From Thermodesulfovibrionales bacterium (GTDB lineage: Bacteria > Nitrospirota > Thermodesulfovibrionia > Thermodesulfovibrionales > Dissulfurispiraceae), in contig JASEGS010000004.1 of NCBI GenBank assembly GCA_030017995.1, forward strand, positions 1 through 61,994: DNA of 61,994 nt, given 5' to 3'. The translations under genes were made by a program, and so were the position numbers. Within the stretch, counting starts at the first letter, position 1. The number at the start of each line of letters is the position of its first letter. The notes beneath the pieces are model-generated. The model saw only the letters and a program-made list of their open reading frames with translations, did no database searches and had not been told where the DNA came from. This document shows positions 1,915 through 61,994 of the stretch, piece after piece.

Positions 1915-3480
1915 CTACTCAACCATCTTTATCTCGAGTATCCGCTCTATATGAAACACCCTATTGTCCTTCCTCGCTGTGCAAAACGCCTGAACGCCAG
2001 TGAATTTCCTGCCATTATATTCAAGCTCTCCAACAAAGCGTGGAATGATAGTGCGTCTTGATTTCTCGTCCTTTGTCTTAAGGTAGGTAATTTCAAGCGG
2101 CCTTTTATCCTTTACAGCCTTCTCTATTATGGAAAATTTTTCATCAGACGGCAGATTCTTTTGCGCCTGTTTATACTGATATTTCGTAACAAAATCCACA
2201 ACCCGCCAATCCATAAAGATGTGCTTTTTTGCAATCGTTTTTTTGAGGACAATCCCCTCAAGGCTTGTGCATCTTGAAAGAGCAACATACAACTGCCCGT
2301 GCGAAAATGTTCCCCTGCCTATGTCTATTATCACCCTTTCAAAGGTCATGCCCTGTCCCTTGTGTATGGTTACCGCCCATGCGAGCTTGAGGGGATATTG
2401 CGTGAATGTGCCGACTACATCCGATATAACCGCGCCTGATTTTTTGTCGTAATGAAATTCATACATCCCCCATGTATAAGGCCCGACATCAACAATCTCT
2501 CCATCCTGAAGCTCCACATGGATCGCATCAGGCTCGCCCTTTATCTTTTCAATGCCCGTAACCTTGCCTATGCTTCCGTTGATCCAGCGCCCCATAGAGT
2601 CGTTATTCAGTAGCATCACCTGAGCGCCGATCTTGAGGGTGATGTCAAGCCCTGTTGGAAGGTCTTTTACATTAAAATCCCCTTCTATCAACCCGTGATA
2701 GCTATATTCTTTACCTTTGAGATCAGCGAGCCTTTTTGTGTTAATTGAGGCGGCAAGGTCGTTTGTTGTGGTGAGATAGATATAAAAGCCCTTGTCGTCA
2801 TGAAAGTCCGGCATATGCCGCGCATTGATCGCGGAAATATCCTCGTCAGTGGCGGTATTATTCCTTATCGCATTAAGGATGTTCAGAAATCTGTCATCCC
2901 TCTGGCGATAGACCTTTTCAAGCTCTATGAACTGCATATCAAAACTTCTGCCGAAGACCATTGCATCAAAGAAATACGGACTCTTATAAAGGCCTCCAAA
3001 CAGCGCCTTATCCCGTGATGTAACAACAGGCGGCAACTGGTAGAGGTCTCCGATAAATATCATCTGAAGACCGCCAAAGGGCTGGGTCTTACTTTTACCG
3101 TGAATGCGGAGGAATTCGGCGATACAGTCCATGAGGTCTGCGCGCACCATCGAGACCTCGTCAATCACAATAGCGTCAAGCTTTTTATAAATTACCTTTT
3201 CTCTCGGCCGCATCCCCTTCACCAGATCAGGAGTGATATCAGGTTTGAATCCGAAGAACGAATGGATGGTCTGTCCTTTCACATTCACTGCTGCAACGCC
3301 TGTGGGCGCAAGCACCGCGATGTTCTTCTCCGTAGTATTCCTGAAATGCTGAAGAAGCGTTGATTTGCCTGTCCCTGCCCTGCCGGTGATAAATACATTT
3401 TTATCAGTCTCCTCCATAATATGGAGGGAGTGAAGGAATTGTTCGTTGAAATCGAGGGAGGGTGAAGTTAAATTTTCCAT
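1915..3480 (-). CDS. Pif1-family helicase with C-terminal WYL domain
   Basis: A 521-residue SF1B helicase. Walker A is GRAGTGKST (residues ~33-41) and Walker B is VIDEVSMVRADLMD (~110). Later motifs include GDLYQLPPV, the LEKVYRQ motif and the TIHKGQGMTFERV motif with SRC near 400. Residues ~455-521 (KRPLEITYLK... through RVFHIERILEI) form a WYL domain, a ligand- or nucleic-acid-binding module known to occur fused to bacterial Pif1 proteins. Likely unwinds structured or stalled DNA. It starts 9 bp after the endoQ stop, so the two are probably co-transcribed, and the phzF promoter likely drives all three genes. Confidence 0.88.
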   Translation of the reverse strand: MENLTSPSLDFNEQFLHSLHIMEETDKNVFITGRAGTGKSTLLQHFRNTTEKNIAVLAPTGVAAVNVKGQTIHSFFGFKPDITPDLVKGMRPREKVIYKKLDAIVIDEVSMVRADLMDCIAEFLRIHGKSKTQPFGGLQMIFIGDLYQLPPVVTSRDKALFGGLYKSPYFFDAMVFGRSFDMQFIELEKVYRQRDDRFLNILNAIRNNTATDEDISAINARHMPDFHDDKGFYIYLTTTNDLAASINTKRLADLKGKEYSYHGLIEGDFNVKDLPTGLDITLKIGAQVMLLNNDSMGRWINGSIGKVTGIEKIKGEPDAIHVELQDGEIVDVGPYTWGMYEFHYDKKSGAVISDVVGTFTQYPLKLAWAVTIHKGQGMTFERVIIDIGRGTFSHGQLYVALSRCTSLEGIVLKKTIAKKHIFMDWRVVDFVTKYQYKQAQKNLPSDEKFSIIEKAVKDKRPLEITYLKTKDEKSRRTIIPRFVGELEYNGRKFTGVQAFCTARKDNRVFHIERILEIKMVE

Positions 3481-18578: not shown

Positions 18579-19744
18579 TTATTTAGTTCCTCCTGTGTTT
18601 TTCTCCTTGCCCAGCCGTCAGCTTCCAGTATTGTATTAATATCATCGGCAGGTTGAAGTTTGTGGACATCCATTACTTTTTTTATTATAACAGGTATATC
18701 ACTAAAACCGATAACACCGCCAAGGAAGGCTGCTACAGCAATTTCATTGGAGGCATTGAGAACAGCAGGCATTGTCCCTCCTGCCTCTATTGCATCATAT
18801 GCAAAGGAGAGGCAAGGGAATGTTTTTGTATCAGGTTTTTTAAATGTCAATCCGGATATTTCTTCCCAGTTGATAGGTTCAATGACATTTGCCAGCCTTT
18901 CAGGATAAGAGAGGGCATAGGCAATGGGCGCTTTCATGTCCGGCATTGAGAGTTGGGCAAGGTAGCTGCCGTCTTTGAACTCCACAATGGAGTGGATAAT
19001 GCTCTGGGGATGTATGAGGACATCTATTTTCTCGACAGGCATGTTAAACAGATGATATGCCTCGATAACTTCAAGACCTTTATTCATCAGGGTTGCAGAG
19101 TCAATTGTTATCTTTCTGCCCATGCTCCAATTCGGATGGTTAAGCGCCTCTCTGGGCGAAACATTATTGAGGTCTTCAGCGGTCATATTTATAAACGGCC
19201 CTCCGGATGCTGTGAGAATGAGCTTCTTTATATTGTCTTTAGTCTGTTTCTCCAGACATTGAAACAGGGCGCTGTGTTCACTGTCTACAGGAAGGATATG
19301 AGCATTATGCTTTTCTGCCATTGACATTACCATTTCTCCTGCTGTTACAAGTGTCTCTTTGTTTGCGAGGGCAATGGTTTTTCCTGCCCTGATTGCGGCG
19401 ATAGTCGGAAGAAGTCCAGCTGAACCTACAATAGAAGATAATATAATGTCAGCCTGCAGCATGGATGCAACGGCGCATATTCCATCTGTGCCGGAAAGCA
19501 TTTCCGGTAAATTTTGTATTTTGTATTTTGTATTTTGTATTTCGGACTTTAAATCCCTGTAAGCTTTTTCATCTGATACTGCAACAACTTTTGGCTGAAA
19601 CTTTTTTATCTGCTCAGCTAAAAGTGAAATATTTTTCCCGGCAGCAAGTCCAACAACCCTGAATCTCTCCTGAAATTTAGAGATTACCTCGAGGGCATTC
19701 CTGCCTATGGAGCCGGTGGAGCCTAAAATTACAATATTTTTCAT
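18575..19744 (-). CDS. dxr: 1-deoxy-D-xylulose 5-phosphate reductoisomerase
   Basis: A 389-residue MEP-pathway enzyme. ILGSTGSIGRNALEVI is the NADPH site, and ALANKETLV, PVDSEHSALFQCL, ASGGPF and the SMGRKITIDSATLMNKG motif are present. Residues around 65-80 (QNTKYKIQN) are an insert encoded by five tandem 7-bp units (19511-19545), at a surface-loop position between the NADPH-domain strands. IspH of the same pathway is at 56511. Confidence 0.96.
   Translation of the reverse strand: MKNIVILGSTGSIGRNALEVISKFQERFRVVGLAAGKNISLLAEQIKKFQPKVVAVSDEKAYRDLKSEIQNTKYKIQNLPEMLSGTDGICAVASMLQADIILSSIVGSAGLLPTIAAIRAGKTIALANKETLVTAGEMVMSMAEKHNAHILPVDSEHSALFQCLEKQTKDNIKKLILTASGGPFINMTAEDLNNVSPREALNHPNWSMGRKITIDSATLMNKGLEVIEAYHLFNMPVEKIDVLIHPQSIIHSIVEFKDGSYLAQLSMPDMKAPIAYALSYPERLANVIEPINWEEISGLTFKKPDTKTFPCLSFAYDAIEAGGTMPAVLNASNEIAVAAFLGGVIGFSDIPVIIKKVMDVHKLQPADDINTILEADGWARRKTQEELNK
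19511..19545. repeat. Heptad tract inside dxr
   Basis: Four exact attttgt units and one atttcgg on the plus strand. The coding strand reads (acaaaat)n, translating as a TKYKIQN heptapeptide cycle. Confidence 0.9.
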
Positions 19745-26802: not shown

Positions 26803-28044
26803 ATGGTTCAAAACTCTGAGTTGAAGCGCGTTATGATAATTACAGGGGAAAGCTCTGGAGAGTTGTATGGCTCACTCCTTGCAAAGGAACTAAAGGCTCA
26901 AAACCCTGAATTGAGCGTAATCGGTGTTGGCGGAGAAAGGATGGAGGCATCAGGTGTTCATCTGATCTCAAGGATTTCGAGCGCCTTCGGGATTTCAGAA
27001 GCTGTAAAAACTTACAGCGAGATTAAAAGGACATTCCAGAAAGTTACCGTTTCTCTTAGATCATTCAGACCCCAGGTTATTGTGTTAATAGATTACCCTG
27101 ATTTTAATATCAGAGTGGCAAGAGAGGCTAAAAAACTGGGGATAAAAGTCCTTTATTATGTAAGCCCTCAAGTGTGGGCATGGAGAAGAAAGAGGGTAAA
27201 GGTGATCGGCAGGTTGGTTGACAGAATGGCGGTAATATTGCCTTTTGAAGAAGAAATATATAAACAGCATGACATCCCCTGTGAATTTGTCGGACATCCT
27301 GTTCTGGATGAGATACGGGAAATTATTTCAGAAGTCAGAAGCCAGAAGTCAGAAGCCGGGAATTTGGATATAGACCGCCAAGAAACGAAAATAAAAGTCA
27401 GAAAAGAACTTGGGCTGATTTCTGATAGGCCTGTGTTGGCATTAATGCCGGGAAGCAGGGAACATGAAATAAAAAAACTTCTGCCTGTTATGTTTGATGC
27501 AGCGGACAGCATAAGAAAACGATACCCTGATTATCAATTTGTCCTGCCGATAGCCCCAAATCTAAACAATAGCAGTTTATCCGCAATAAACAGCGAATTA
27601 AAGAGATTTGACCACCTCCATCTGCGTATTGCCGGCAGCTCCATAAAATCACTTCTTGCATCTGATGTTGCAGTTATAGCGTCAGGCACATCGACTCTTC
27701 AGGCAGCGATTCTTGGTGTCCCTATGGTTGTTGTTTATAAACTCTCCCCTTTGACTTATTTGGCAGGCAGGCTTATTGTTAAGGTAAGGCATATATCTCT
27801 TGTAAATATTCTTCTGGAGCGGTCAATCAGAGACGAGTCCGGCCCGCGAGTGAAAGAAATGTTACAAAATGATGTAAATAAAGAAAATATTATGAAGGAA
27901 CTTTCAAGAATCATTGAGGATTCTGCATACAACAATATGATGAGATCACAATTTGAAAAGGTCAAAGGCCTTTTTACAGACAGAAGAGCATCATTTCGGG
28001 TGGCTGAAATTATTCGGGGATTAGGGGTTAGCGCAAATGTTTAA
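26803..28044 (+). CDS. lpxB: Lipid A disaccharide synthase
   Basis: A 413-residue GT19 glycosyltransferase. Motifs: IITGESSGELYGSLLAKEL, VGVGGERMEASGV, LIDYPDFNIRVA, VLYYVSPQVWAW, LPFEEEIYK, FVGHPVLDE, LMPGSREHEIKKLLP and ASGTSTLQAAILG. Just after GHPVLDE, the stretch SEVRSQKSEAG is written by a heptad tract (27329-27356) in the surface loop joining the two domains. Joins the lipid A precursors; overlaps msbA by 8 bp. Confidence 0.96.
   Translation: MVQNSELKRVMIITGESSGELYGSLLAKELKAQNPELSVIGVGGERMEASGVHLISRISSAFGISEAVKTYSEIKRTFQKVTVSLRSFRPQVIVLIDYPDFNIRVAREAKKLGIKVLYYVSPQVWAWRRKRVKVIGRLVDRMAVILPFEEEIYKQHDIPCEFVGHPVLDEIREIISEVRSQKSEAGNLDIDRQETKIKVRKELGLISDRPVLALMPGSREHEIKKLLPVMFDAADSIRKRYPDYQFVLPIAPNLNNSSLSAINSELKRFDHLHLRIAGSSIKSLLASDVAVIASGTSTLQAAILGVPMVVVYKLSPLTYLAGRLIVKVRHISLVNILLERSIRDESGPRVKEMLQNDVNKENIMKELSRIIEDSAYNNMMRSQFEKVKGLFTDRRASFRVAEIIRGLGVSANV
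27329..27356. repeat. Heptad tract inside lpxB
   Basis: cagaagt, cagaagc, cagaagt, cagaagc. In frame it gives SEVRSQKSEA. Confidence 0.85.
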
Positions 28045-31043: not shown

Positions 31044-32068
31044 CGCTTCCTGAATTTATTTATTACATAGGCTATTCTCTCGATAAGCGCTATAAGCTGA
31101 AAAGACAGCAGCGTCTTCCCCATACTGTTATCAGCATAGGCAATGTTACTATCGGAGGCACTGGGAAGACCCCGGCGACAATAGATGTTGCGGAAGAGGC
31201 AAAGAAGAGAGGTTTTAGTCCGATAATTTTGACGAGAGGGTATAAAGGGAATGCGAAAGGGCCGTGTCTTGTCCAGAGGTCAGAAGTCAGAAGTCAGAAA
31301 TCAGAAGGAAAAAGCTCAAAGCAAGACTCATCACTTCTTTTCGGCGACGAGCCTGTATTAATGGCAGATAGACTGAAAGATGTCCCGATAGTTAAATGCG
31401 CCGACAGATACGAAGGCGCAATGTTTTTTTTACAAAACTATGAGCCATCAGCTATGAACTATGAGCCAATCTTCATCCTTGACGACGGCTTTCAGCACTG
31501 GAGGCTTTACCGAGATATGGACATTGTTTTAATTGACGGTTCTAATCCATTCGGCAATAGAAGACTGCTTCCTGTCGGGCCTTTGAGAGAGCCGCTTTCC
31601 GAGCTTAAACGGGCTGGCATGTTTGTCATAACAAAGACGAAGAATGAGTCATTAATAAATGAGCTTAAAGGATTTAATTCTGCTGCGCCTGTGTATTTTT
31701 CTGAATATGAAATTCGCAGGCTTAAAAACGCATCGGGAAAAGAGTTCCCTGTCGAAGTGTTAAAGCACAAAAGAGTTTACGCCTTTTGCGGCCTTGCAAA
31801 TCCGGAGTCGTTTAAGCAGACTGCCTTGTCTGTTTGCGGTGAACTGTCCGGTTTTAAGGCTTACAGAGATCATCATAGTTATACAATATCTGACATGCGT
31901 TATCTCGAAGAACAGTCCAAAAAGACAGAATGCGACTTTCTGCTTACGACAGAGAAAGACATGGTGAAGATCAAAGGAATGAATATCCCTGAAAATCTTT
32001 TATGCGTCGAGATTGATTTTTCGATAGACAGGGGATTTTTCGATTCGGTTTTTAAAAATATTTCCTGA
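31040..32068 (+). CDS. lpxK: Tetraacyldisaccharide 4'-kinase
   Basis: A 342-residue P-loop kinase: SIGNVTIGGTGKTPATIDVA (Walker A), ILTRGYKG, GDEPVLMADRL, ILDDGFQHWRLYRDMDIVLIDG and LLPVGPLREPLSELKRA. Two heptad tracts add SEVRSQKSEGKSSKQ and NYEPSAMNYEPIF within the first half, the second directly before the conserved DDGFQHW. The 3' end overlaps the convergent uvrA by 17 bp. Confidence 0.94.
   Translation: MTLPEFIYYIGYSLDKRYKLKRQQRLPHTVISIGNVTIGGTGKTPATIDVAEEAKKRGFSPIILTRGYKGNAKGPCLVQRSEVRSQKSEGKSSKQDSSLLFGDEPVLMADRLKDVPIVKCADRYEGAMFFLQNYEPSAMNYEPIFILDDGFQHWRLYRDMDIVLIDGSNPFGNRRLLPVGPLREPLSELKRAGMFVITKTKNESLINELKGFNSAAPVYFSEYEIRRLKNASGKEFPVEVLKHKRVYAFCGLANPESFKQTALSVCGELSGFKAYRDHHSYTISDMRYLEEQSKKTECDFLLTTEKDMVKIKGMNIPENLLCVEIDFSIDRGFFDSVFKNIS
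31274..31308. repeat. Heptad tract a inside lpxK
   Basis: cagaggt, cagaagt, cagaagt, cagaaat, cagaagg. Confidence 0.88.
31437..31471. repeat. Heptad tract b inside lpxK
   Basis: actatga, gccatca, gctatga, actatga, gccaatc; a different unit from tract a only ~130 bp away. Confidence 0.75.
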
Positions 32069-34844
32069 GATATTGCCCTGTATACGAATGTGCCGCGTTC
32101 TTTAGTTCTTCAGGAATTCCTTCAAATATTATATTCCCTCCCTTTTCTCCGCCCTCAGGCCCTAAATCTATAACCCAGTCCGCCTGTCCTATCACATCGA
32201 GGTTGTGCTCGATGATCAGCACCGTGTTCACAGAGTCAACGAGCTTTTTTATTATTTTTATGAACATCAGCACATCATTGTGATGCAGCCCTACCGTAGG
32301 CTCATCGAGAATATAGAGCATGCCTTTTCCCATAGGGGGTTCTCGTAAGGGGGACGCAGTCCCCCTTACGCTTAGCTCGGCGCATATTTTTAGGCGCTGT
32401 GCCTCGCCCCCTGAAAGGGTTGTGGCAGACTGCCCGAGCCTAAGATAACCGAGTCCTATATCTCTCATGAGACCGAGTTTTGATTTTATCTCGGCAATGC
32501 CTGAGAAAAACTCATACGCCTCGTCAACTGTCATCTCGAGGATGTCGCTTATATTTTTGCCCTTGTATGTAACCCTCAGAGCGTCTTCCTTATATCTTCT
32601 TCCCTTACAGTCCTCGCATTTAATGAATATGTCTTCAAAAAAATACATTTCCATTTTTTGATAACCTTCTCCCTTGCACGTCTCGCATCTTCCGCCCGGC
32701 ACATTGAACGAGAAAAAGCCGGGGGTATAGCTGTGCGCCTTTGCCTCCATCTGCTGGGAAAAGAGTTTTCTTATGGGATCGAATATCTTGAGGTATGTAA
32801 TGGGATTTGACCTCGGTGTCTTTCCGATAGGCGTCTGGTCTATAAGCCTTGTTCCCTTTATCCTTTCAATCCCTTCAATTTTTCTATAAGGGAGCGGATG
32901 TTCTGGTTCTGTCCTGAAATGGTGCGCCAGCGCAAGATACAGCGTTTCGACAACAAGGCTGCTTTTGCCCGAGCCTGATACGCCTGTGACAACTGTCAAT
33001 GCGTTAAGCGGAATTTTAAGGTCTATGTTTTTGAGATTATTTCCGGCAGCACCGAAAAGGCTAATAAACGGAGGACATATTATTTTTTTTCTGACTCCTG
33101 ACTCCCCGATGCGGGTCTCCGCTGAGGGTCGCTTCGACTGACTTCTGACTTCTGACTTTTTTATATACCTTGCCGTTAATGTATCGGTTTTCAAGAATTC
33201 ATCCATCGGTCCTGAAAATACGACCTCTCCGCCTAAATACCCGCCTCCGGTCCCCATCTCCACGACCCAGTCAGCCGATGAGATTATATCTTTGTCGTGC
33301 TCGACAACGATTATAGTGTTGCCGAGAGATGAAAGCTCTCTCATTATTTCAGCGATCCGCTGCGTGTCCCTCGGGTGCAGCCCTATGGTGGGCTCATCGA
33401 GCACATAAAGGGTTCCGGTAAGAGCAGATGCGAGTTGATTGGAAAGATTAACCCTCTGATATTCACCGCCTGACAATGTCTTGGCCTGCCTGCTGAGCGT
33501 GAGGTAATCGAGGCCGACCCTCTCAAGGAACTGCAGCTTTAAAGATATTTGACGTATTGCCTCCTTTGCAATGTCGCGCTGCATCGGAGATAAGTGTAAA
33601 TTTTTAAACCACTGCGCAAGCTGCGATATCGGCAGATTGGATAATTCCGCTATATCGAGGCCGTTTATTTTATAAGAGAGGGCACTCTCGCAGAGCCTCC
33701 TCCCTCCGCATTTGGGACAGACCACGGGGCTCCTGTACCTGCTCAGCAATACCCTTACATGGAGCTTGTATCTCTTGGACTCCATCTCTTCAAAGAAATC
33801 GTTAATGCCGTAAAAATGCTGATTGCCTTTGAATATTGCATCTTTTTCTTCCTTTGTCAGTTTGTTATAAGGCATGTTTACATCAATTCCGCTTTTTTTT
33901 GCCCCTTTTATCATCTGCTCTTTCCACCATATGTATCCCGGCTTTTCCCATAAGTCTATCGCTCCCTCAGAGAGGGAGAAGTATTTGTCTGACACTATGA
34001 TATCTTCGTCATATATAAGGATGTTGCCGAACCCCTTGCATTCAGGACACGCGCATACCGGATGGTTGAAGGAGAACATGATCGGAGAAGGCTCGGGCAG
34101 CTTTATGTTGCAGTCCTCGCAGAGATTTTTTGAAGAGAATCCGAGCGGCAGTTTTCCGGTTTCTTTGAAGATAATGACCTTCAGGCTTTCCCTGCCCTCT
34201 TTCCATGCCATTTCTATGGAGTCTGACAGACGGGGCTCGTCCCTTATAATAAGCCTGTCGAGGACGATTTCCTTTAAATTCGCAATTCGCAATTCGCAAT
34301 TCGCAATTTCTTTGATCTCTTCATCAACCCATAGCCTGTGAAATCCTCTTTGTCTCAGGTTTTCCAGAGATTCTTCTGTTTCGAATATGATAACGGCCTT
34401 TTCGTTCTCATGTTTTTCAAGCAGCTCCGAGACTATCTGCGAAGCATCCCATTTCCTTATCTCTTTCCTGCATCGGGGGCAGTATGGAGCAGCGATTCTC
34501 GAGTATAAAACCCGCAGAAGATCGTATATCTCCGTAAGCGTTCCTACGGTTGAGCGCGAGCCCTTGACCGGATTTTTTTGCTCAAGAGCAATTGCAGGCC
34601 TGATGTTGTGAATGGCGTCCACATCCGGCCTGTCGAGTTTTTCTATAAAGAGTCTTGCGTAAGTGGAGAGAGATTCTATGAATCTCCACTGCCCTTCCGC
34701 GAATATAGTGTCAAAAGCTAAAGACGACTTGCCCGATCCTGATACGCCTGTTACGGCGATTACCTTATTGTGGGGTAGACGGAGGTTAATGTTTTTGAGG
34801 TTGTTCTGTCTGGCGCCTTCTATTATTAATTCCCTGATTGGCAT
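32052..34844 (-). CDS. uvrA: Excinuclease ABC subunit A
   Basis: A 930-residue nucleotide-excision repair ATPase with two ABC modules: GVSGSGKSSLAFDT and GVSGSGKSSLVVETL (Walker A), LSGGEYQRV and LSGGEAQRLK signatures, YVLDEPTIGLHPRD and YILDEPTVGLHHND (Walker B). Zinc fingers CPRCRKEI, CPKCGGRRL and CETCKGEG...CEDCKGRR. Three inserts are unusual. One is a heptad tract at 34278-34305 (IANCELRIAN), a second a split tract in the inter-module linker (33091-33158), and the third a palindromic insert just before the second Walker B (32344-32370). Reading frame is intact throughout. Confidence 0.97.
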   Translation of the reverse strand: MPIRELIIEGARQNNLKNINLRLPHNKVIAVTGVSGSGKSSLAFDTIFAEGQWRFIESLSTYARLFIEKLDRPDVDAIHNIRPAIALEQKNPVKGSRSTVGTLTEIYDLLRVLYSRIAAPYCPRCRKEIRKWDASQIVSELLEKHENEKAVIIFETEESLENLRQRGFHRLWVDEEIKEIANCELRIANLKEIVLDRLIIRDEPRLSDSIEMAWKEGRESLKVIIFKETGKLPLGFSSKNLCEDCNIKLPEPSPIMFSFNHPVCACPECKGFGNILIYDEDIIVSDKYFSLSEGAIDLWEKPGYIWWKEQMIKGAKKSGIDVNMPYNKLTKEEKDAIFKGNQHFYGINDFFEEMESKRYKLHVRVLLSRYRSPVVCPKCGGRRLCESALSYKINGLDIAELSNLPISQLAQWFKNLHLSPMQRDIAKEAIRQISLKLQFLERVGLDYLTLSRQAKTLSGGEYQRVNLSNQLASALTGTLYVLDEPTIGLHPRDTQRIAEIMRELSSLGNTIIVVEHDKDIISSADWVVEMGTGGGYLGGEVVFSGPMDEFLKTDTLTARYIKKSEVRSQSKRPSAETRIGESGVRKKIICPPFISLFGAAGNNLKNIDLKIPLNALTVVTGVSGSGKSSLVVETLYLALAHHFRTEPEHPLPYRKIEGIERIKGTRLIDQTPIGKTPRSNPITYLKIFDPIRKLFSQQMEAKAHSYTPGFFSFNVPGGRCETCKGEGYQKMEMYFFEDIFIKCEDCKGRRYKEDALRVTYKGKNISDILEMTVDEAYEFFSGIAEIKSKLGLMRDIGLGYLRLGQSATTLSGGEAQRLKICAELSVRGTASPLREPPMGKGMLYILDEPTVGLHHNDVLMFIKIIKKLVDSVNTVLIIEHNLDVIGQADWVIDLGPEGGEKGGNIIFEGIPEELKNAAHSYTGQYLRKYF
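32344..32370. repeat. Palindrome inserted in frame in uvrA
   Basis: cgtaagggggac and gtcccccttacg pair perfectly around gca. It encodes VRGTASPLRE, absent from the usual UvrA spacing between the signature helix and LYILDEPT. Confidence 0.75.
33091..33158. repeat. Split heptad tract in the uvrA linker
   Basis: ctgactc twice, a 33-bp non-repeat segment (encoding RPSAETRIG), then ctgactt three times. The coding strand is agtcaga-type and stop-free. Confidence 0.85.
34278..34305. repeat. Heptad tract near the uvrA 5' end
   Basis: Four exact attcgca units on the plus strand; the coding strand is (gaattgc)n, the same unit as in mqnE. Confidence 0.92.
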
Positions 34845-35071: not shown

Positions 35072-36139
35072 GTGGAAATGTCTGAGTTTATAAAAAATAA
35101 AGTTCTCGCCGGAGAAAGGCTCACAAAGCAGGATGCCGTTTCATTATTCAAAAGCGATGATATTTTTTCCCTTGGAAGGCTTGCAAATAATATTGCAGAA
35201 AAGAAAAACGACAAAAGCGCGTATTTTATAGTCAACCGTCATATAAATCCCACGAACATATGCGTCAATAGGTGCAAGTTCTGCGCCTTCAGTCGCTCAA
35301 AGGGAGAGTTTGGAGCTTATGAATTGACGATTGAAGAGATTATCGAAAAATTGCGAGTTGCGAATTGCGAGCTGCGAATTTCTGAAGTTCACATGGTAGG
35401 CGGGCTTCATCCGGATTGGCCTTTTGAATACTACATCAATATGCTTTCAGAGATTAAAAAGGAATTTTCTGCTATTGCGATCAAGGCATTTACAGCGGTT
35501 GAGATTGATTATCTCTCAAAGATCAGCGGCCTGAGCCTTGCAGATACCATGGTGAAGCTTAAAAAAAACGGTCTCGATCTTATGCCCGGTGGCGGCGCGG
35601 AGATATTCGTGGAGGATGTAAGAAATAAATTGTGCCCTGAAAAGATTTCCGGAGACAGATGGCTTGAGGTAATGGAAGCGGCGCATATGGCTGGAATAAA
35701 GACGAACGCAACAATGCTCTATGGTCACCTCGAAAGCATCGAGGACAGGGTTGACCATCTTTTGAGATTGCGCGAATTGCAGGACAGGACAGGAGGATTT
35801 CAGGCATTCATTCCTCTTTCATATCATCCGAGGAATACTGAGATAGGCGGTTTTTATTCTTCGGGAATTGACGACTTAAAGACAATTGCAATAAGCAGGC
35901 TCGTTCTCGATAATTTCGATCATATAAAGGCTTACTGGATAATGCTTGGAGAAAAGATTTCTCAGGTCGCGCTTTTGTTCGGAGCCGACGATCTTGACGG
36001 CACGATAATCGAAGAGAAGATAACTCATTCCGCGGGCGCAATGAGCGAAGAGGGAATGACGAGAGAGGAGTTGACGCATCTCATCAGGAAGGCTGGGAAG
36101 ATCCCGGTGCAGAGGGATGCGTTTTATAATGCGATATGA
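35072..36139 (+). CDS. mqnE: Aminofutalosine synthase
   Basis: A 355-residue radical SAM enzyme. NPTNICVNRCKFCAFSRSKG holds the C-X3-C-X2-C cluster motif; HMVGGLHPDWP, LMPGGGAEIFV and ATMLYGHLES are MqnE/CofH-family signatures. First committed radical step of futalosine menaquinone synthesis. ATG 35078 is an equally possible start. A heptad tract at 35351-35378 writes LRVANCELRIS directly before the conserved EVHMVGG strand. Overlaps mqnC by 4 bp. Confidence 0.94.
   Translation: MEMSEFIKNKVLAGERLTKQDAVSLFKSDDIFSLGRLANNIAEKKNDKSAYFIVNRHINPTNICVNRCKFCAFSRSKGEFGAYELTIEEIIEKLRVANCELRISEVHMVGGLHPDWPFEYYINMLSEIKKEFSAIAIKAFTAVEIDYLSKISGLSLADTMVKLKKNGLDLMPGGGAEIFVEDVRNKLCPEKISGDRWLEVMEAAHMAGIKTNATMLYGHLESIEDRVDHLLRLRELQDRTGGFQAFIPLSYHPRNTEIGGFYSSGIDDLKTIAISRLVLDNFDHIKAYWIMLGEKISQVALLFGADDLDGTIIEEKITHSAGAMSEEGMTREELTHLIRKAGKIPVQRDAFYNAI
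35351..35378. repeat. Heptad tract inside mqnE
   Basis: ttgcgag, ttgcgaa, ttgcgag, ctgcgaa. Confidence 0.9.
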
Positions 36140-37185
36140 AGAGAATAGATAAAGATACGGCATTAAGACTTCTCAAAAATTCCGATATTCTTGATCTCGG
36201 CGAGAAGGCCGACAATATCAGGAAAACCCTTCATCCCAAAGCCGTTGTCACCTTTATAGTTGACCGCAATATCAATTACACGAATGTCTGCATAAATAAA
36301 TGCAGGTTCTGCGCTTTTTACCGTGATGCGGAAAGCCCTGACGCTTATCTTTTAGGAAAGGATGAGATATTTAAAAAAATAGACGAGACCATTGCCCTTG
36401 GAGGTACACAGATACTCCTTCAGGGAGGCATACATCCTGAATTGGAAATGGACTATTATATTGACCTGCTTAAATCCATAAAGGACCGCTATTCGATAAA
36501 CTTGCACGGCTTTTCTCCGCCGGAAATATCATATCTTGCAGATAAGCATGACCTCACGATCAGGGAGACACTGGTAATATTGAGACAGTCCGGTCTGGAT
36601 TCGATTCCCGGCGGCGGCGCCGAGATACTTTCAGACAGGGTTAGAGAAATCCTGAGTCCTAAAAAAATAAAGTCTTCAACATGGCTTAAGGTAATGGAAG
36701 AGGCGCACAACATCGGCATGAGGACGACAGCGACCATGATGTTCGGAAGTGTTGAGGAGCCGGAAGACATTATCGAACACCTCGACGCCGTAAGAAACCT
36801 GCAGGATAAGACAGGCGGATTTACCGCATTTATACCTTGGTCTTTTCAGCCGGGAAATACTGAATTAATTCGGAATTCGGAATTCGGAATCCGAAATTCT
36901 GCTACGGCTGTTGACTATCTTAGGGCGCTTGCGGTTTCGAGGATATATTTCGACAATATCAAAAACATTCAGGCATCGTGGGTTACTCAGGGACTGAAGC
37001 TTGCGCAAGTGGCTTTGAGATTCGGAGCAAATGATTTCGGCTCCACAATGATTGAAGAGAATGTTGTTCGCGCTGCAGGCGTAAATTTTTGCGTTTCTAA
37101 AGAAGATATAATACAGGCAATTAAGAGCGCAGGATTCAAGGCGGCTCAAAGGGATACATATTATAATATTATTGCAGACATATGA
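36136..37185 (+). CDS. mqnC: Cyclic dehypoxanthinyl futalosine synthase
   Basis: A 349-residue radical SAM enzyme. NYTNVCINKCRFCAFYRDAE carries C-X3-C-X2-C; LLQGGIHPELEMDYY, LHGFSPPEISYLA and SIPGGGAEIL are MqnC signatures. It cyclises dehypoxanthine futalosine. A heptad tract (36867-36901) adds RNSEFGIRNSATA after the conserved FIPWSFQPGNTEL. ATGA overlap couples it to mqnE. Confidence 0.94.
   Translation: MKRIDKDTALRLLKNSDILDLGEKADNIRKTLHPKAVVTFIVDRNINYTNVCINKCRFCAFYRDAESPDAYLLGKDEIFKKIDETIALGGTQILLQGGIHPELEMDYYIDLLKSIKDRYSINLHGFSPPEISYLADKHDLTIRETLVILRQSGLDSIPGGGAEILSDRVREILSPKKIKSSTWLKVMEEAHNIGMRTTATMMFGSVEEPEDIIEHLDAVRNLQDKTGGFTAFIPWSFQPGNTELIRNSEFGIRNSATAVDYLRALAVSRIYFDNIKNIQASWVTQGLKLAQVALRFGANDFGSTMIEENVVRAAGVNFCVSKEDIIQAIKSAGFKAAQRDTYYNIIADI
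36867..36901. repeat. Heptad tract inside mqnC
   Basis: aattcgg three times, aatccga, aattctg. Confidence 0.92.
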
Positions 37186-42906: not shown

Positions 42907-43653
42907 TCATATGCCGGACAAATAATTATCTAAAAAAAATCTTTGCGCATTTTTCGCGGCCTTGACAATATCAGATTTGTTAAGCGGCGCCGCTGTCCTG
43001 TCCTCGATAATATTGCTTATGCCCCTTATCTCAACAGTCGGAATCCCTGATAATGAACAGACATGCGCTATCGCAGCTCCTTCCATGTTCTCGCAAAGGG
43101 CATTAAATCTCTTTTCTATCTCACTGCCCTTTTCAAGTGTTCCTGTGCATGTCGAGACCGTAATAAAATTGCCTTTTGCAGCATCCTTTAGTTTTTCAGG
43201 AATGAACAGCGGGAATTCATTGTAATAATTATTCCCGCTGATTGCAGCTAAAGGGAGATTAAGTTTATCCATTGTACAGAAGTTTATTTCGTCTTTTTCT
43301 CTGACTTCTGACTCCTGACTTCTGACTTCTGTTTTTATAGCCAGTCCTTCATCGCCGTATATCTCCTTTTCTGCAACGGCGATGTCCCCAATGTTCAAAC
43401 CTGATGATGGATAAGCCCCTGCAACGCCGATGATATAGAGTAAGCCGGGCTTAAATCTCTCTATTAGAAGCGCTGTGCCGTGTGCAGCATTGGCCTTGCC
43501 GATTCCGCATATACAGATTGTGGTTTCTCTGTCGCCTAAAAATCCTCTATAAAAATTTTTGCCTTGAATTGTGGATAATTCTTTTTGTGAAAGCCGGCCT
43601 ATGATCAGGCCGGCCTCTATCTCAGTTGATGCAATGATTCCTAACAGGCTCAA
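42907..43653 (-). CDS. mqnB: Futalosine hydrolase
   Basis: A 248-residue nucleosidase. CGIGKANAAHGTALLI, IGVAGAYPSSGLNIGDIAVAEKEIYGDEG, CENMEGAAIAHVC and EIRGISNIIEDR match MqnB. With mqnE and mqnC present it releases hypoxanthine from futalosine or aminofutalosine in menaquinone synthesis rather than acting as a general MTA/SAH nucleosidase. After DEGLAI an insert TEVRSQESEVREKDE is written by a heptad tract (43300-43334). Overlaps osmC-like gene by 4 bp. Confidence 0.88.
   Translation of the reverse strand: MSLLGIIASTEIEAGLIIGRLSQKELSTIQGKNFYRGFLGDRETTICICGIGKANAAHGTALLIERFKPGLLYIIGVAGAYPSSGLNIGDIAVAEKEIYGDEGLAIKTEVRSQESEVREKDEINFCTMDKLNLPLAAISGNNYYNEFPLFIPEKLKDAAKGNFITVSTCTGTLEKGSEIEKRFNALCENMEGAAIAHVCSLSGIPTVEIRGISNIIEDRTAAPLNKSDIVKAAKNAQRFFLDNYLSGI
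43300..43334. repeat. Heptad tract inside mqnB
   Basis: Plus-strand tctgact, tctgact, cctgact, tctgact, tctgttt; coding strand stop-free. Confidence 0.9.
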
Positions 43654-49960: not shown

Positions 49961-49989
49961 TCTTCCCCGTGGTCTTGCCACAGGGAAGA
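49961..49989 (+). promoter_or_regulatory. Hairpin before aroF
   Basis: tcttccccgtgg and ccacagggaaga pair (11 of 12) around a 5-nt loop, 5-10 nt before the aroF GAGGAGG. It could affect translation or protect the mRNA. Confidence 0.45.
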
Positions 49990-50007
49990 TCAATAGAGGA
50001 GGAAGTC

Positions 50008-51033
50008 ATGGATATTATAGTCTTAAAGCCTGATACATCTGAGTATGACGTCAGGCATATTCTTAAGAAACTCGAGAGCAAAGGTCTTAAAGCCACGGTA
50101 TCTTCAGGTACAGAGAGGACTATCATCGGTGTAATCGGAGATACATCCAAAGTAACAGAAGAGGAAGAGGATGCAATCCGTGCTATGACAGGCGTGGAGA
50201 ATGTAGTCAGGATATTAAAGCCGTATAAGCTTGCAAGTCGGGAATTCAAGAAAGAAGATACAGAAATAGATGTTAAGGGGAATGTAATCGGCGGCAAAAA
50301 AATTCATGTGATAGCAGGACCGTGTGCTGTTGAGAACAAGACAATCATGATGCATATAGCAGAGGAAGTTAAAAGAGCGGGCGCTACCTTTTTGAGGGGC
50401 GGCGCTTATAAGCCGAGGACATCACCTTATTCATTTCAGGGGCTTGGTGAGGAAGGGCTCAAATATCTATCGGCGGCAAGAGAGAAGACAGGATTGCCGA
50501 TCGTTACAGAGATAATGGATCCGAGGGATTTAGATGTAATCACGAAATACGCGGATGTGATTCAGATAGGCGCGCGTAATATGCAGAATTTCAGACTGCT
50601 TCTTGAGGTCGGCAAGGTCGATAAACCAGTTTTGCTTAAGCGGGGACTTTCTGCCACCATTAAGGAATGGCTCATGTCTGCAGAATATATAATGTCACAG
50701 GGCAATCAAAAGGTGATGCTTTGCGAAAGGGGCATCAGAACATTTGAGACAGCAACAAGGAATACACTCGATCTTAGCGCAGTGCCTGTGCTGAAAAGAT
50801 TGACACATCTTCCTGTTGTGGTTGATCCGAGTCATGGAGTCGGCAAGTGGGATCTTGTAGCGCCCATGGCAAAGGCTGCTGTCGCTGTAGGCGCGGATGC
50901 TCTAATAATAGAAGTACATACAAATCCAGCAGAGGCGCTTTCTGACGGTGAGCAGTCTTTGAAACCTGACCTGTTTATGAAATTAATGAAGGAATTAGCG
51001 CCAGTTGCTGAAGCTGTCGGAAGAGAAATATAA
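50008..51033 (+). CDS. aroF: 3-deoxy-7-phosphoheptulonate synthase (type I-beta)
   Basis: A 341-residue DAHP synthase. Residues 1-70 form a ferredoxin-like regulatory domain ([21 protein letters not shown]). The catalytic barrel has [69 protein letters not shown] and [15 protein letters not shown] sets ATG 50008. First step of the shikimate route. Confidence 0.96.
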
Positions 51034-51038
51034 AAACA

Positions 51039-51094
51039 GTCAAGAGTTATGAGTCAAGAGTTATGAGTCAAGAGTTATGAGTCAAGAGTTAAAG
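51039..51094 (+). repeat. 14-bp tandem repeat forming the tyrA leader
   Basis: Three exact copies of gtcaagagttatga (51039, 51053, 51067) and a partial fourth (gtcaagagttaaag). Each full copy carries an ATG; the first two open five-codon frames (MSQEL) whose TGA overlaps the next ATG by ATGA. The third ATG is the tyrA start. Confidence 0.95.
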
Positions 51095-51949
51095 AAGGAA
51101 GTTTTTTTTAATAAAGCAACTATCATCGGCGTGGGTCTTTTAGGCGCATCTTTTGCACTTGCCCTGAGAGAAAAAAATCTTTGCAAGACCATATGCGGAT
51201 ACGGCAGGAAAGAGGAGAATTTAAAAAGGGCGAAAGATCGAAAAATAATTGACGACTACAGCCTCGATGCGGCAAAGGCATGCGAGGACGCAGACTTGGT
51301 AATCCTGTCCACGCCTGTAGGACTATTTAAAGAGATTGCTGAGAATATAAAAGGAGTCCTAAAAAAAGGAGCGATAGTAACGGATGTAGGAAGCGTAAAA
51401 GGAAGGCTCGTTTATGAATTGGAGTCGGCGATGCCTGATGGGGTTTATTATATCGGCTCACATCCGATAGCAGGCAGCGATAAGTCTGGAATCGACGATG
51501 CGAGAGCAGATTTGTTCAATAGTGCGAGGTGCATTATTACGCCGACAGAAAATTCCGGTGAATCCGCAAAGAAAAAGGTTGCGTCTCTATGGGAAGCCTT
51601 GGGAGCAAAGATTGAGCTGATGGATCCGATGAAGCATGACGAGATTTACGCTATAGTCAGCCATTTCCCTCATGTAATAGCATACGCTATAGTGAACACC
51701 GTAGGAGAGATAGATTCGAAATACATAGAATATGCGGGCAAGGGTTTTAAGGATACGACGAGGATTGCATTGAGCTCCCCTGAGATGTGGCGCGATATAT
51801 CTGTTTTCAATAAAGACAATATAATTAAGGTCATAGATGTCTTCAGGAAGAACCTCGATAAGATCGAAAATATGCTTAACTCTTCAGATGCCTCCAGGAT
51901 TGAAGATGAATTTACAACGGCTCAGGAACTGAGGAAGAAGCTGAAGTAA
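51077..51949 (+). CDS. tyrA: Prephenate dehydrogenase
   Basis: A 290-residue NAD-dependent enzyme of tyrosine synthesis. ATIIGVGLLGASFALALRE (NAD site), ADLVILSTPVGLFKEIA, VTDVGSVKGRLV, GSHPIAGSDKSGIDDARADLF, VSHFPHVIAYAIVN and GFKDTTRIALSSPEMWRDI are present. Its start ATG 51077 lies in a 14-bp tandem repeat with no normal Shine-Dalgarno, suggesting translation by coupling through the mini-ORFs. Three bases separate it from aroA. Confidence 0.94.
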   Translation: MSQELKKEVFFNKATIIGVGLLGASFALALREKNLCKTICGYGRKEENLKRAKDRKIIDDYSLDAAKACEDADLVILSTPVGLFKEIAENIKGVLKKGAIVTDVGSVKGRLVYELESAMPDGVYYIGSHPIAGSDKSGIDDARADLFNSARCIITPTENSGESAKKKVASLWEALGAKIELMDPMKHDEIYAIVSHFPHVIAYAIVNTVGEIDSKYIEYAGKGFKDTTRIALSSPEMWRDISVFNKDNIIKVIDVFRKNLDKIENMLNSSDASRIEDEFTTAQELRKKLK

Positions 51950-51952
51950 TTC

Positions 51953-53254
51953 ATGAAACAGGCAGAGATCACAAAAGTCAAATCCCTTAAGGGCGAGATA
52001 ATACCGCCTCCTGACAAATCAATATCCCACAGGGCAGTGATGTTTGCCTCTATTGCCAAAGGCAGGAGCATTGTCAGAAATTTTTTGAGGGCTGAAGACC
52101 CGATAAGCACCATGAATGCCTTTCGCTCGATGGGGACCGAGATAGAAGAAAAGGCAGGCAATGCGCTGATTATTCACGGCAAAGGACTGCATGGGATCAA
52201 AGAGCCGTTCGATGTTATAAACTGCGGGAATTCCGGAACGACTGTAAGGCTTATTTCAGGCATACTTTCGGGCAATCCATTTTTTTCCGTCCTCACAGGA
52301 GACGATTCATTAAAGCAGAGGCCGATGGCGAGGGTTATCGCCCCATTGAAAGATATGGGGGCTGAGATCTCCGCGCGGAATGGAGATAAATATCTGCCGA
52401 TGGCAATAAATGGCAGGCGACTGAAGGCGATAGATTACAAGATGCCTGTCGCGTCGGCTCAGGTGAAGTCATGCCTGATACTCGCCGGGCTTTATGCTGA
52501 CGGCACAACCGCAATAACGGAACTCCAAAAATCCCGGGACCACACAGAGAGAATGCTCAGATCAATGGGAGCAAATATTGAAGTTGACGGGCTTGTTATA
52601 AAGGTAAAAGGTCAGGCAGGCCAAAGCGAATTAACTCCTATTGATGTTACGGTTCCAGCGGATTTTTCTTCAGCTGCTTTTTTCATAGCAGCGGCGCTGA
52701 TGGTTCCTAATTCGGAGATTTTGATAAAAGATGTATGCGTCAACCCGACAAGAACAGGCATGCTTGATGTAGTAAAAAATATGGGCGCCAATGTGAGGAT
52801 AGAAAACATAAGGGACGCCTCTGGAGAGCCTGTGGCAGACATTTATTGCAAAAACTCAGGCAGCTTAAAGGCTGTAAAAATAAGCGGAGACATAATGCCT
52901 TCTTTGATAGATGAATTCCCGATCCTCTGCGTACTCGCTACACAGGCTGAAGGTGTTACCGAAATCAGAGGCGCTGAAGAGCTGAGAGTTAAAGAATCAG
53001 ACCGTATAAAAGCGATGTCAGTGGAACTGAAAAAGCTCGGCGTTGAGCTTGAAGAATATCCAGACGGAATTTCGATCAAAGGCAAGGCGTCTCTGAAAGG
53101 CGCTGTAGTTGAAAGCTATCATGACCACAGAATAGCAATGTCCCTCGCAATAGCCGCGCTCGCGGCACAAGGCACAACCATCATCAATAACTCATCCTGC
53201 GTTGACATATCATTTCCGGGGTTTTTTGAAGAATTAAAAAGAATAACAAGCTGA
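51953..53254 (+). CDS. aroA: EPSP synthase
   Basis: A 433-residue 3-phosphoshikimate 1-carboxyvinyltransferase: GEIIPPPDKSISHRAVMFAS, CGNSGTTVRLISGIL, DSLKQRPMARVI, ASAQVKSCLILAGLYA, VPADFSSAAFFIAAA, RVKESDRIKAM and HDHRIAMSLAIAAL. Last gene of the aromatic cluster; a hairpin follows. Confidence 0.96.
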   Translation: MKQAEITKVKSLKGEIIPPPDKSISHRAVMFASIAKGRSIVRNFLRAEDPISTMNAFRSMGTEIEEKAGNALIIHGKGLHGIKEPFDVINCGNSGTTVRLISGILSGNPFFSVLTGDDSLKQRPMARVIAPLKDMGAEISARNGDKYLPMAINGRRLKAIDYKMPVASAQVKSCLILAGLYADGTTAITELQKSRDHTERMLRSMGANIEVDGLVIKVKGQAGQSELTPIDVTVPADFSSAAFFIAAALMVPNSEILIKDVCVNPTRTGMLDVVKNMGANVRIENIRDASGEPVADIYCKNSGSLKAVKISGDIMPSLIDEFPILCVLATQAEGVTEIRGAEELRVKESDRIKAMSVELKKLGVELEEYPDGISIKGKASLKGAVVESYHDHRIAMSLAIAALAAQGTTIINNSSCVDISFPGFFEELKRITS

Positions 53255-60681: not shown

Positions 60682-61328
60682 TGGGTAAAATATTCGATTG
60701 GGTAGGCAGTCGTTTTGGCGTCAAAGAGCCGCATAAGAGGTTTCTGCAAAGACCTGTTCCGTTGAACCTTAATTACTCATATTGTTTAGGAGGAATGGCC
60801 TTCACATATTTTTTAATGCTCGTGTCTACAGGCTTGCTACTGTCCATTTATTATGTGCCCTCAGAAAAAGAGGCTTTTAAAAGTGTCGTTATGATTACCA
60901 ATGAAGTGACAATGGGCTGGCTTATAAGGAGCCTTCATAAATGGTCTGCAAATCTCTTTATAATATTCATAATCCTTCACACCATCAGGGTATTTGTATC
61001 AAAGGCATACAAGCCGCCGAGAGAACTTAACTGGATTGTGGGCGTCTTTGGTTTTATTTCAGCAATGGCATCAGGTTTTACAGGCTATCTTCTACCATGG
61101 GACCAGAAGGCATACTGGGCCACAGAGGTCGGAACATCCATGTTTGGAATAGTTCCTTTTATAGGGGAATATCTTGTGTACGCTGTCAGAGGAGGTCTTG
61201 ATATCAGCGGTGCAACACTCATTAGATTCTACAGTTTTCATGTGCTATATTTACCAATATCCATGGCAATAATCCTCTGGGCGCATTTCCATATGGTTAA
61301 AAGGCAGGGAATAGCAGAAAAGTTGTGA
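60681..61328 (+). CDS. Cytochrome b N-terminal part (b6-like)
   Basis: A 215-residue four-helix membrane subunit with haem-binding His pairs: RSLHKWSANLFIIFIILHTIRVF and YSFHVLYLPISMAIILWAHFH. GYLLPWDQKAYWA is the Qo-side motif. Splitting from the C-terminal part resembles b6f and the complexes of Nitrospirota/Firmicutes. Confidence 0.93.
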   Translation: MGKIFDWVGSRFGVKEPHKRFLQRPVPLNLNYSYCLGGMAFTYFLMLVSTGLLLSIYYVPSEKEAFKSVVMITNEVTMGWLIRSLHKWSANLFIIFIILHTIRVFVSKAYKPPRELNWIVGVFGFISAMASGFTGYLLPWDQKAYWATEVGTSMFGIVPFIGEYLVYAVRGGLDISGATLIRFYSFHVLYLPISMAIILWAHFHMVKRQGIAEKL

Positions 61329-61354
61329 GTTTAGAGTCATGAGCGATGAGTTAA
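61327..61354. repeat. Heptad tract at the cytochrome b gap
   Basis: gagttta, gagtcat, gagcgat, gagttaa; the start ATG of the next gene (61339) is inside it. Confidence 0.75.
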
Positions 61355-61716
61355 ATAGAGAGAAAACATTTTATCCGGATTATCTATCGGAAATAATAGC
61401 CGCTATTTTAATTGCCTTTGAGATGCTGATAATTTTAGCCCTGCTTGACCCTCCTTCAATAGGCAGGCAGATTGATTTTACGAGGCAGTTTCAGCCCGCG
61501 CCTGAGTGGTATTTCCTCTGGCTCTATCAGCTTGTAAGGTATTTCCCCGGCAGGAGTGCGTTTTTGGGCGCTGTTGTAATTCCGTTATTTTCTATCTTCC
61601 TGCTTTTATTGATCCCGTACATTGACAGTGGTAAATATGGAAGATTGAAAGCAATAGCAGTCGGCAGCGCAATTTTGCTTGCCTTTATAATTTTTACGCT
61701 GCTCAGCTTGCTATAA
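61339..61716 (+). CDS. Cytochrome b C-terminal part (subunit IV-like)
   Basis: A 125-residue protein with three membrane helices. FQPAPEWYFLWLYQLVRYFPG contains the quinol-site PEWY motif. Completes the split cytochrome b with the preceding subunit. No cytochrome c1 or f gene is seen before the contig ends. Confidence 0.9.
   Translation: MSDELNREKTFYPDYLSEIIAAILIAFEMLIILALLDPPSIGRQIDFTRQFQPAPEWYFLWLYQLVRYFPGRSAFLGAVVIPLFSIFLLLLIPYIDSGKYGRLKAIAVGSAILLAFIIFTLLSLL

Positions 61717-61994
<278 letters not shown>

Follow-up and report, generated by a model that had tools for sequence, protein, structure and literature searches.

The window analysed here is a stretch of 61,994 bp from the draft genome of a Thermodesulfovibrionales bacterium. 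An aroF-like DAHP synthase gene (49969–51033, forward strand; an ORF matching Pfam DAHP_synth_1 at 3e-85) is followed in the same operon by tyrA, coding for a 290-residue prephenate dehydrogenase (51077–51949, forward strand; PDH_N 1.6e-38, PDH_C 9.1e-27), and by an ORF recognised through Pfam as aroA (EPSP synthase; 51953–53254, forward strand). The tyrA gene at 51077 is the sole tyrA match in the genome. The aroF–tyrA junction, and the first codons of tyrA itself, are occupied by a tandem array (51038–51093, forward strand), which TRF reports as a perfect period-14 repeat at 51038–51091 (AGTCAAGAGTTATG × 3.9, 100% matches, score 108). Lag analysis gives a basic unit of 7 bp, with the leader matching itself at 0.63 for lag 7 and 0.77 for lag 14, and at 0.17–0.29 for the other lags from 3 to 13. 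The array thus reads as eight heptamers, AGTCAAG and AGTTATG alternating three times and then AGTCAAG AGTTAAA; the unit number is that of the draft assembly. There are no period-14 arrays in a dinucleotide-model shuffle of 763 kb, and the array at tyrA is not a product of chance.

The array contains three ATG codons, at 51049, 51063 and 51077. The first lies 15 nt past the aroF stop (TAA, ending at 51033) and the third at +43 nt, with two ATGA steps between them. As read from the sequence, the first two ATGs open mini-ORFs (51049–51066 and 51063–51080, both forward strand), each encoding MSQEL and ending in a TGA that overlaps the next ATG as ATGA. The third ATG opens tyrA, such that the array supplies both the start codon and the residues MSQEL; there is no other ATG, GTG or TTG in the tyrA frame upstream of the conserved domain, which leaves 51077 as the sole position from which tyrA could start. 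The original prediction had described the 14-bp repeat with its three ATGs, the two overlapping mini-ORFs and the opening of prephenate dehydrogenase by the third ATG, and all of these are present as it described them. The MSQEL chain is not, however, independent evidence of design, since any ATGA recurring every 14 bp produces it arithmetically (14 = 2 mod 3).

An in-silico series of unit numbers illustrates how the leader responds to changes in length. With one unit the tyrA ATG is at +15 and there is no mini-ORF, and every further 14 bp adds one more MSQEL and keeps tyrA in frame; only the loss of single heptamers 6, 7 or 8 would abolish the tyrA start. Within this series a 14-bp change affects nothing but the number of mini-ORFs and the distance. 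The related suggestion of a contingency switch does not survive, at least as an on/off device for such changes, because tyrA stays in frame however many complete 14-bp units are gained or lost.

The repeat at tyrA is one of many in this genome. In a sample of 763 kb of stretches, about 45% of the 1.7-Mb draft genome, there are 56 arrays of period 7 and 50 of period 14, together 69 distinct arrays, with 0–12 arrays for each of the other periods from 5 to 21, and none in shuffles of the 763 kb (one per period); by extrapolation from the 69 arrays we estimate about 150 period-7 arrays in the whole genome. There is thus a genome-wide excess of 7-bp tandem units over other unit lengths, of the kind described for SSR/STRR heptanucleotide repeats. 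Sixty-five of the 69 arrays are inside ORFs, as random placement predicts at a coding fraction of 0.90, and a few of these may be spurious since the ORFs (at least 100 codons) were called mechanically. The remaining four, the tyrA array among them, are in spacers. The in-gene arrays have the stop-rich strand antisense, with all three antisense frames stopped in 31 arrays and all three sense frames in none, and the spacer arrays, including that of tyrA, have stops in all three frames in four of four cases. This is most simply read as purifying selection that determines in which places a given type of heptamer can persist.

The carriers examined belong to recognisable protein families, with strong Pfam matches for all 20 array-bearing ORFs tested. 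They include Dxr, LpxB, LpxK, UvrA, two CofH/MqnC-like radical-SAM proteins, a nucleoside phosphorylase-family protein, alanine racemase, ferrochelatase, a heavy-metal ATPase, LpxI, PheT and others. With arrays distributed genome-wide and mostly in housekeeping genes, the presence of one at tyrA does not in itself imply regulation of tyrosine synthesis. Arrays of the AGTYANR type are patchily distributed through the phylum, in 72 of 296 genomes, and a reversed control pattern has few matches in most of these. We note that one relative of the same class, G280, has the triple AGTYANR pattern at 277 places, far above any other genome scanned, and that heptamer arrays cluster in a hotspot, roughly a dozen of them within 12 kb, near a tetrapyrrole-methylase gene in the genome studied here (L048; G000:C8:1-20000). 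At the end of the window (61933–61994) a different repeat, an (AGAC)15.5 tetranucleotide tract, runs into an N gap between scaffolded pieces (L274 1995–2092), upstream of a secreted-looking 305-aa ORF with a TTG start (L274 2136–3053); as a candidate for variation in length, this tract is more classical than the tyrA array.

Arrays lie inside the following genes of the window: dxr (19508–19546, reverse strand; the SEIQNTKYKIQNL segment), lpxB (27328–27355, forward; SEVRSQKSEA), lpxK (31273–31307, forward), uvrA (34275–34310, reverse), two radical-SAM CofH/MqnC-like genes (35348–35382 and 36865–36897, both forward) and the nucleoside phosphorylase-family gene (43300–43332, reverse). The start of lpxB at 26803 is also in a 7-bp periodic stretch. 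Alignment to family relatives identifies the array-coded segments of MqnC-like, Dxr and AlaS as lineage-specific in-frame insertions, and in relatives the corresponding point is taken by different repeat-like insertions, as at the site in the second radical-SAM gene (36865–36897); for AlaS, the match to PDB ended ahead of the array and relatives were compared instead. As dxr and alaS have one match each in the genome, it is presumably the copy with the array that functions. The UvrA array lies where the protein is variable but differs little in length from the PDB homologue, and it is ruled out as a clean insertion. In five MqnC-like orthologues (L116, L133, L134, L136 and L137) the same insertion site also holds other repeat-like segments (EGTVPDLRT..., HPPLLPPLSRGGIGG), and a single MqnC-like loop thus seems to collect several repeat families. 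Elsewhere, arrays read on the CTTCTGT strand encode hydrophobic stretches, SLFSVFCFLSSA and CSLFSVFCLLFFV (L044 8808–9329, reverse; L059 17587–18624, forward), that resemble the signal-peptide cores of a TPR lipoprotein and a SpoIID-like protein, both named by eye except for TPR, which Pfam recognises. In the relative G017, aroA contains an in-gene ACAGAAG/ACAGACA heptamer-like stretch (L007, about 3005–3060) that is missing from the aroA of the window.

Gene starts made from arrays are not confined to tyrA. A second in the window (61321–61355, forward strand) reads AGTTGTG AGTTTAG AGTCATG AGCGATG AGTTAAA, and its ATG at 61339 begins the MSDEL... of an ORF with a cytochrome b C-terminal domain. 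Also in this genome, an array opens a 116-aa ORF (MSEEL) after an argJ-like gene, and similar arrays, with gene names given by reading of the sequence, open a tsaD-like gene of G046 and, in three relatives, recombinase-like genes, all beginning MSYEL. Across the genome sample 13 ORF starts have a 7-bp periodic context, with 0–2 at lags other than 7 and 14. The absence of a Shine–Dalgarno sequence at tyrA, which the original prediction had noted, proves to be ordinary in this genome: of 88 genes whose start is unambiguous, only 20% have an SD 4-mer ahead of it, against a background of 12.6%, and the anti-SD energy upstream of tyrA, for an assumed anti-SD sequence, equals the median of those 88 genes.

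The aroF–tyrA junction was compared among close relatives in the Thermodesulfovibrionales/Nitrospirae. The genome studied here (G000) and relatives G017 and G022 share AGTCAAGAG...GARTTAAAGAA, with 8, 4 and 5 heptamers, respectively; G017 and G022 have arrays of the AGTCAAG/AGTTATG type, and their flanks are similar to those of G000. Heptamers of the AGTGAAT/AGTGGAT/AGCGAAT type are present in the same AGT register in G044, G045, G046 and G002. The junction array of G012 is degenerate, and there is no clear array at the junction in G005, G008 or G010. In seven genomes (G000, G017, G022, G044, G045, G046 and G002) it is the array that provides the ATG or GTG at which tyrA starts. The proposed variability of the leader thus holds between species, in both unit number and sequence. 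Register and flanks are the grounds for taking AGTTATG-type and AGTGAAT-type arrays as probably homologous, and recurrent replacement of junction arrays is possible since the array types differ even within a genus.

The relatives also place the mini-ORFs in context. In G017, tyrA starts at the first array ATG, 15 nt past the aroF stop, with no upstream mini-ORF, and in G022 a single mini-ORF overlaps the tyrA start. Among 230 genomes of the class, the exact pattern of three ATGs at 14-bp spacing is found in one other genome, where it is a plain heptamer run. A conserved MSQEL chain, considered as a candidate, is essentially absent both from the junctions of relatives and from the 230 class genomes, and two MSQEL ORFs linked in a chain are a peculiarity of the genome studied here. 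Of the proposed reinitiation chain, the mini-ORF geometry is real and is compatible with termination–reinitiation, the sequence having an ATGA stop-start overlap downstream of another ORF, but the chain is not conserved in relatives.

From the array and its genome-wide class, the similar arrays at the same place in relatives, the array-derived start codon and the geometry of the overlaps, we infer the order of capture, the slippage and the ribosome relay. We regard as probable, although not strongly so, an account in which an array of the dispersed heptamers was captured as the tyrA start and later expanded by 14-bp slippage, with the ATGA-linked mini-ORFs relaying ribosomes. A heptamer array would have been present at the aroF–tyrA junction in an ancestor that this genome shares with at least three other genera, and would have been captured as the translation start and N-terminus of tyrA, as its units carry a start codon (the ATG in AGTTATG or the GTG in AGTGAAT). 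Slippage would then have expanded the 14-bp double unit from a G017-like arrangement, in which the tyrA ATG is 15 nt past the aroF stop, and would have moved the tyrA start to +43 nt. Ribosomes terminating at aroF would restart 15 nt on and step from ATGA to ATGA onto tyrA, and tyrA expression would survive the expansion because each added unit makes a five-codon ORF with its TGA overlapping the next ATG. ATGA overlaps are known to couple strictly or strongly, and in E. coli gene pairs the loss of reinitiation is 40–80% at +14 and nearly complete at +38 (PMC6728339, PMC10666635); the suggested relay rests by analogy on E. coli and Haloferax data. The coupling distances together with the in-silico unit series favour capture followed by tolerated expansion.

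An unlikely, but by no means negligible, alternative is that the array is a neutral passenger that provides a start codon, with ATG3 initiated directly and independently of Shine–Dalgarno pairing and the mini-ORFs without effect. Direct initiation at ATG3 could indeed be how tyrA starts, being normal for a genome in which SD motifs are rare, and this alternative also accommodates the mini-ORF chain as an arithmetic consequence of the repeat and the occurrence of arrays everywhere in the genome. It sits less well with the two earlier ATGs within the 43-nt gap, the first of which is at +15, exactly the position of the tyrA start in G017, and with the over-representation of array-made starts at lag 7, which argues that start-site arrays are not only passengers. 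It is distinctly improbable that the leader is a translational tuner, the quantitative form of the original prediction, in which the number of MSQEL ORFs sets how many ribosomes reach tyrA and 14-bp slippage gives a population TyrA levels that vary heritably. The perfect units do suggest recent slippage, species vary in the number of units, the effect of a 14-bp change is confined to the count of mini-ORFs and the distance, and heptanucleotide tracts that tune expression are known from the hmw1A and hmw2A promoters of H. influenzae (PMC2651432). Yet the MSQEL chain is not shared by relatives and its only other exact three-ATG match in the class is that plain heptamer run, the same repeats are present in core genes without contingency logic, and tyrA is a housekeeping gene.

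That the repeat number results from short-read misassembly is very improbable: the genome is a draft of 55 contigs, but similar arrays are found at the same junction in independently assembled relatives, and 54 bp is shorter than common read lengths. An amino-acid attenuator or riboregulator, with MSQEL as a leader peptide sensing tyrosine or chorismate products, is hardly credible and we reject it, for although there are leader ORFs ahead of an amino-acid biosynthetic gene and the leader RNA folds slightly better than shuffles (z −2.1), MSQEL contains no Tyr or Phe codon, no terminator-like site was found, no Rfam family matches anywhere in the window, and the leader lies inside an operon 15 nt past aroF.

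Capture of an array followed by tolerated expansion at tyrA could be one case of something more general. Tentatively, and with more doubt than confidence, we suggest that lineages of the Nitrospirota have a dispersing heptamer-array system that, at any place where it settles, builds in-frame segments of single-copy core enzymes and ready-made, length-tolerant gene starts at which the hand-over of ribosomes is preserved; such starts would tolerate length change because each unit or unit pair carries a start codon and ATGA-linked mini-ORFs. If this is true, tyrA is the clearest start-site case. The arrays, as parts of core enzymes and as gene start codons, provide a concrete route from repeat DNA to protein and translation signals. 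The 14-bp repeat leader also offers a simple experimental system for asking if ribosomes can be brought across a gap by ATGA-linked mini-ORFs.

Core protein genes that accommodate dispersed repeats in frame are also familiar from the Rickettsia palindromic elements, which are longer and palindromic, whereas the repeats here are heptamer arrays. Bacterial heptamer repeats are known mainly as intergenic sequences of unknown use, and here they form in-frame enzyme segments and gene start codons. Our literature search turned up no account of such arrays within genes of the Nitrospirota, a weak negative as subscription papers lay outside it. It is known that 7-bp units are in excess among the repeats of bacteria, as are long SSR or STRR heptanucleotides from the Mrazek survey and from Calothrix (as cited in PMC4679880 and PMC4692102), and Xanthomonas has GGGAATC heptamer repeats (PMC4692102). 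Judging from those citing papers, SSR/STRR heptanucleotides resemble the arrays here in their 7-bp excess over other lengths, variable number and degenerate units. The described cases are over-represented in intergenic DNA, a usual though not defining property, whereas here placement follows the coding fraction (65 of 69 arrays in ORFs) and arrays within genes keep their sense strand open.

In ATGA termination–reinitiation (PMC6728339, PMC10666635) a stop and a start likewise share ATGA, with an upstream gene in the same operon, but the known coupling joins two genes, and the relay proposed here would pass through two repeat-made five-codon ORFs. The hmw1A and hmw2A tracts (PMC2651432) similarly have a 7-bp repeat of varying number upstream of a gene; they act in the promoters of surface adhesins, however, and the tyrA array belongs to an operon-internal leader that precedes a housekeeping gene. 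The nearest published parallel is the TAACTGA direct repeats of marine Beggiatoaceae, Cyanobacteria and Bacteroidetes, which are mostly intergenic (MacGregor 2015, PMC4679880). They are reminiscent of the arrays here as short tandem heptamers that recur many times in a genome, often only nucleotides away from a start codon and usually without a Shine–Dalgarno sequence, and they are also alike in their patchy phylogeny and 7-nt indels between close strains (PMC4679880). The tyrA array shares the location at an SD-less start codon; its units, AGTCAAG and AGTTATG, are not TAACTGA. Those repeats are built from a single heptamer, which for the most part lies between genes, ahead of the start, and outside conserved protein regions; the copies within genes are found chiefly in hypothetical proteins or at the ends of proteins. 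Here there are many heptamers, largely within ORFs, they form internal segments of core enzymes too, and the arrays contain the start codon itself. The random-like density within core genes and the arrays that contain the start codon are what sets this genome apart.
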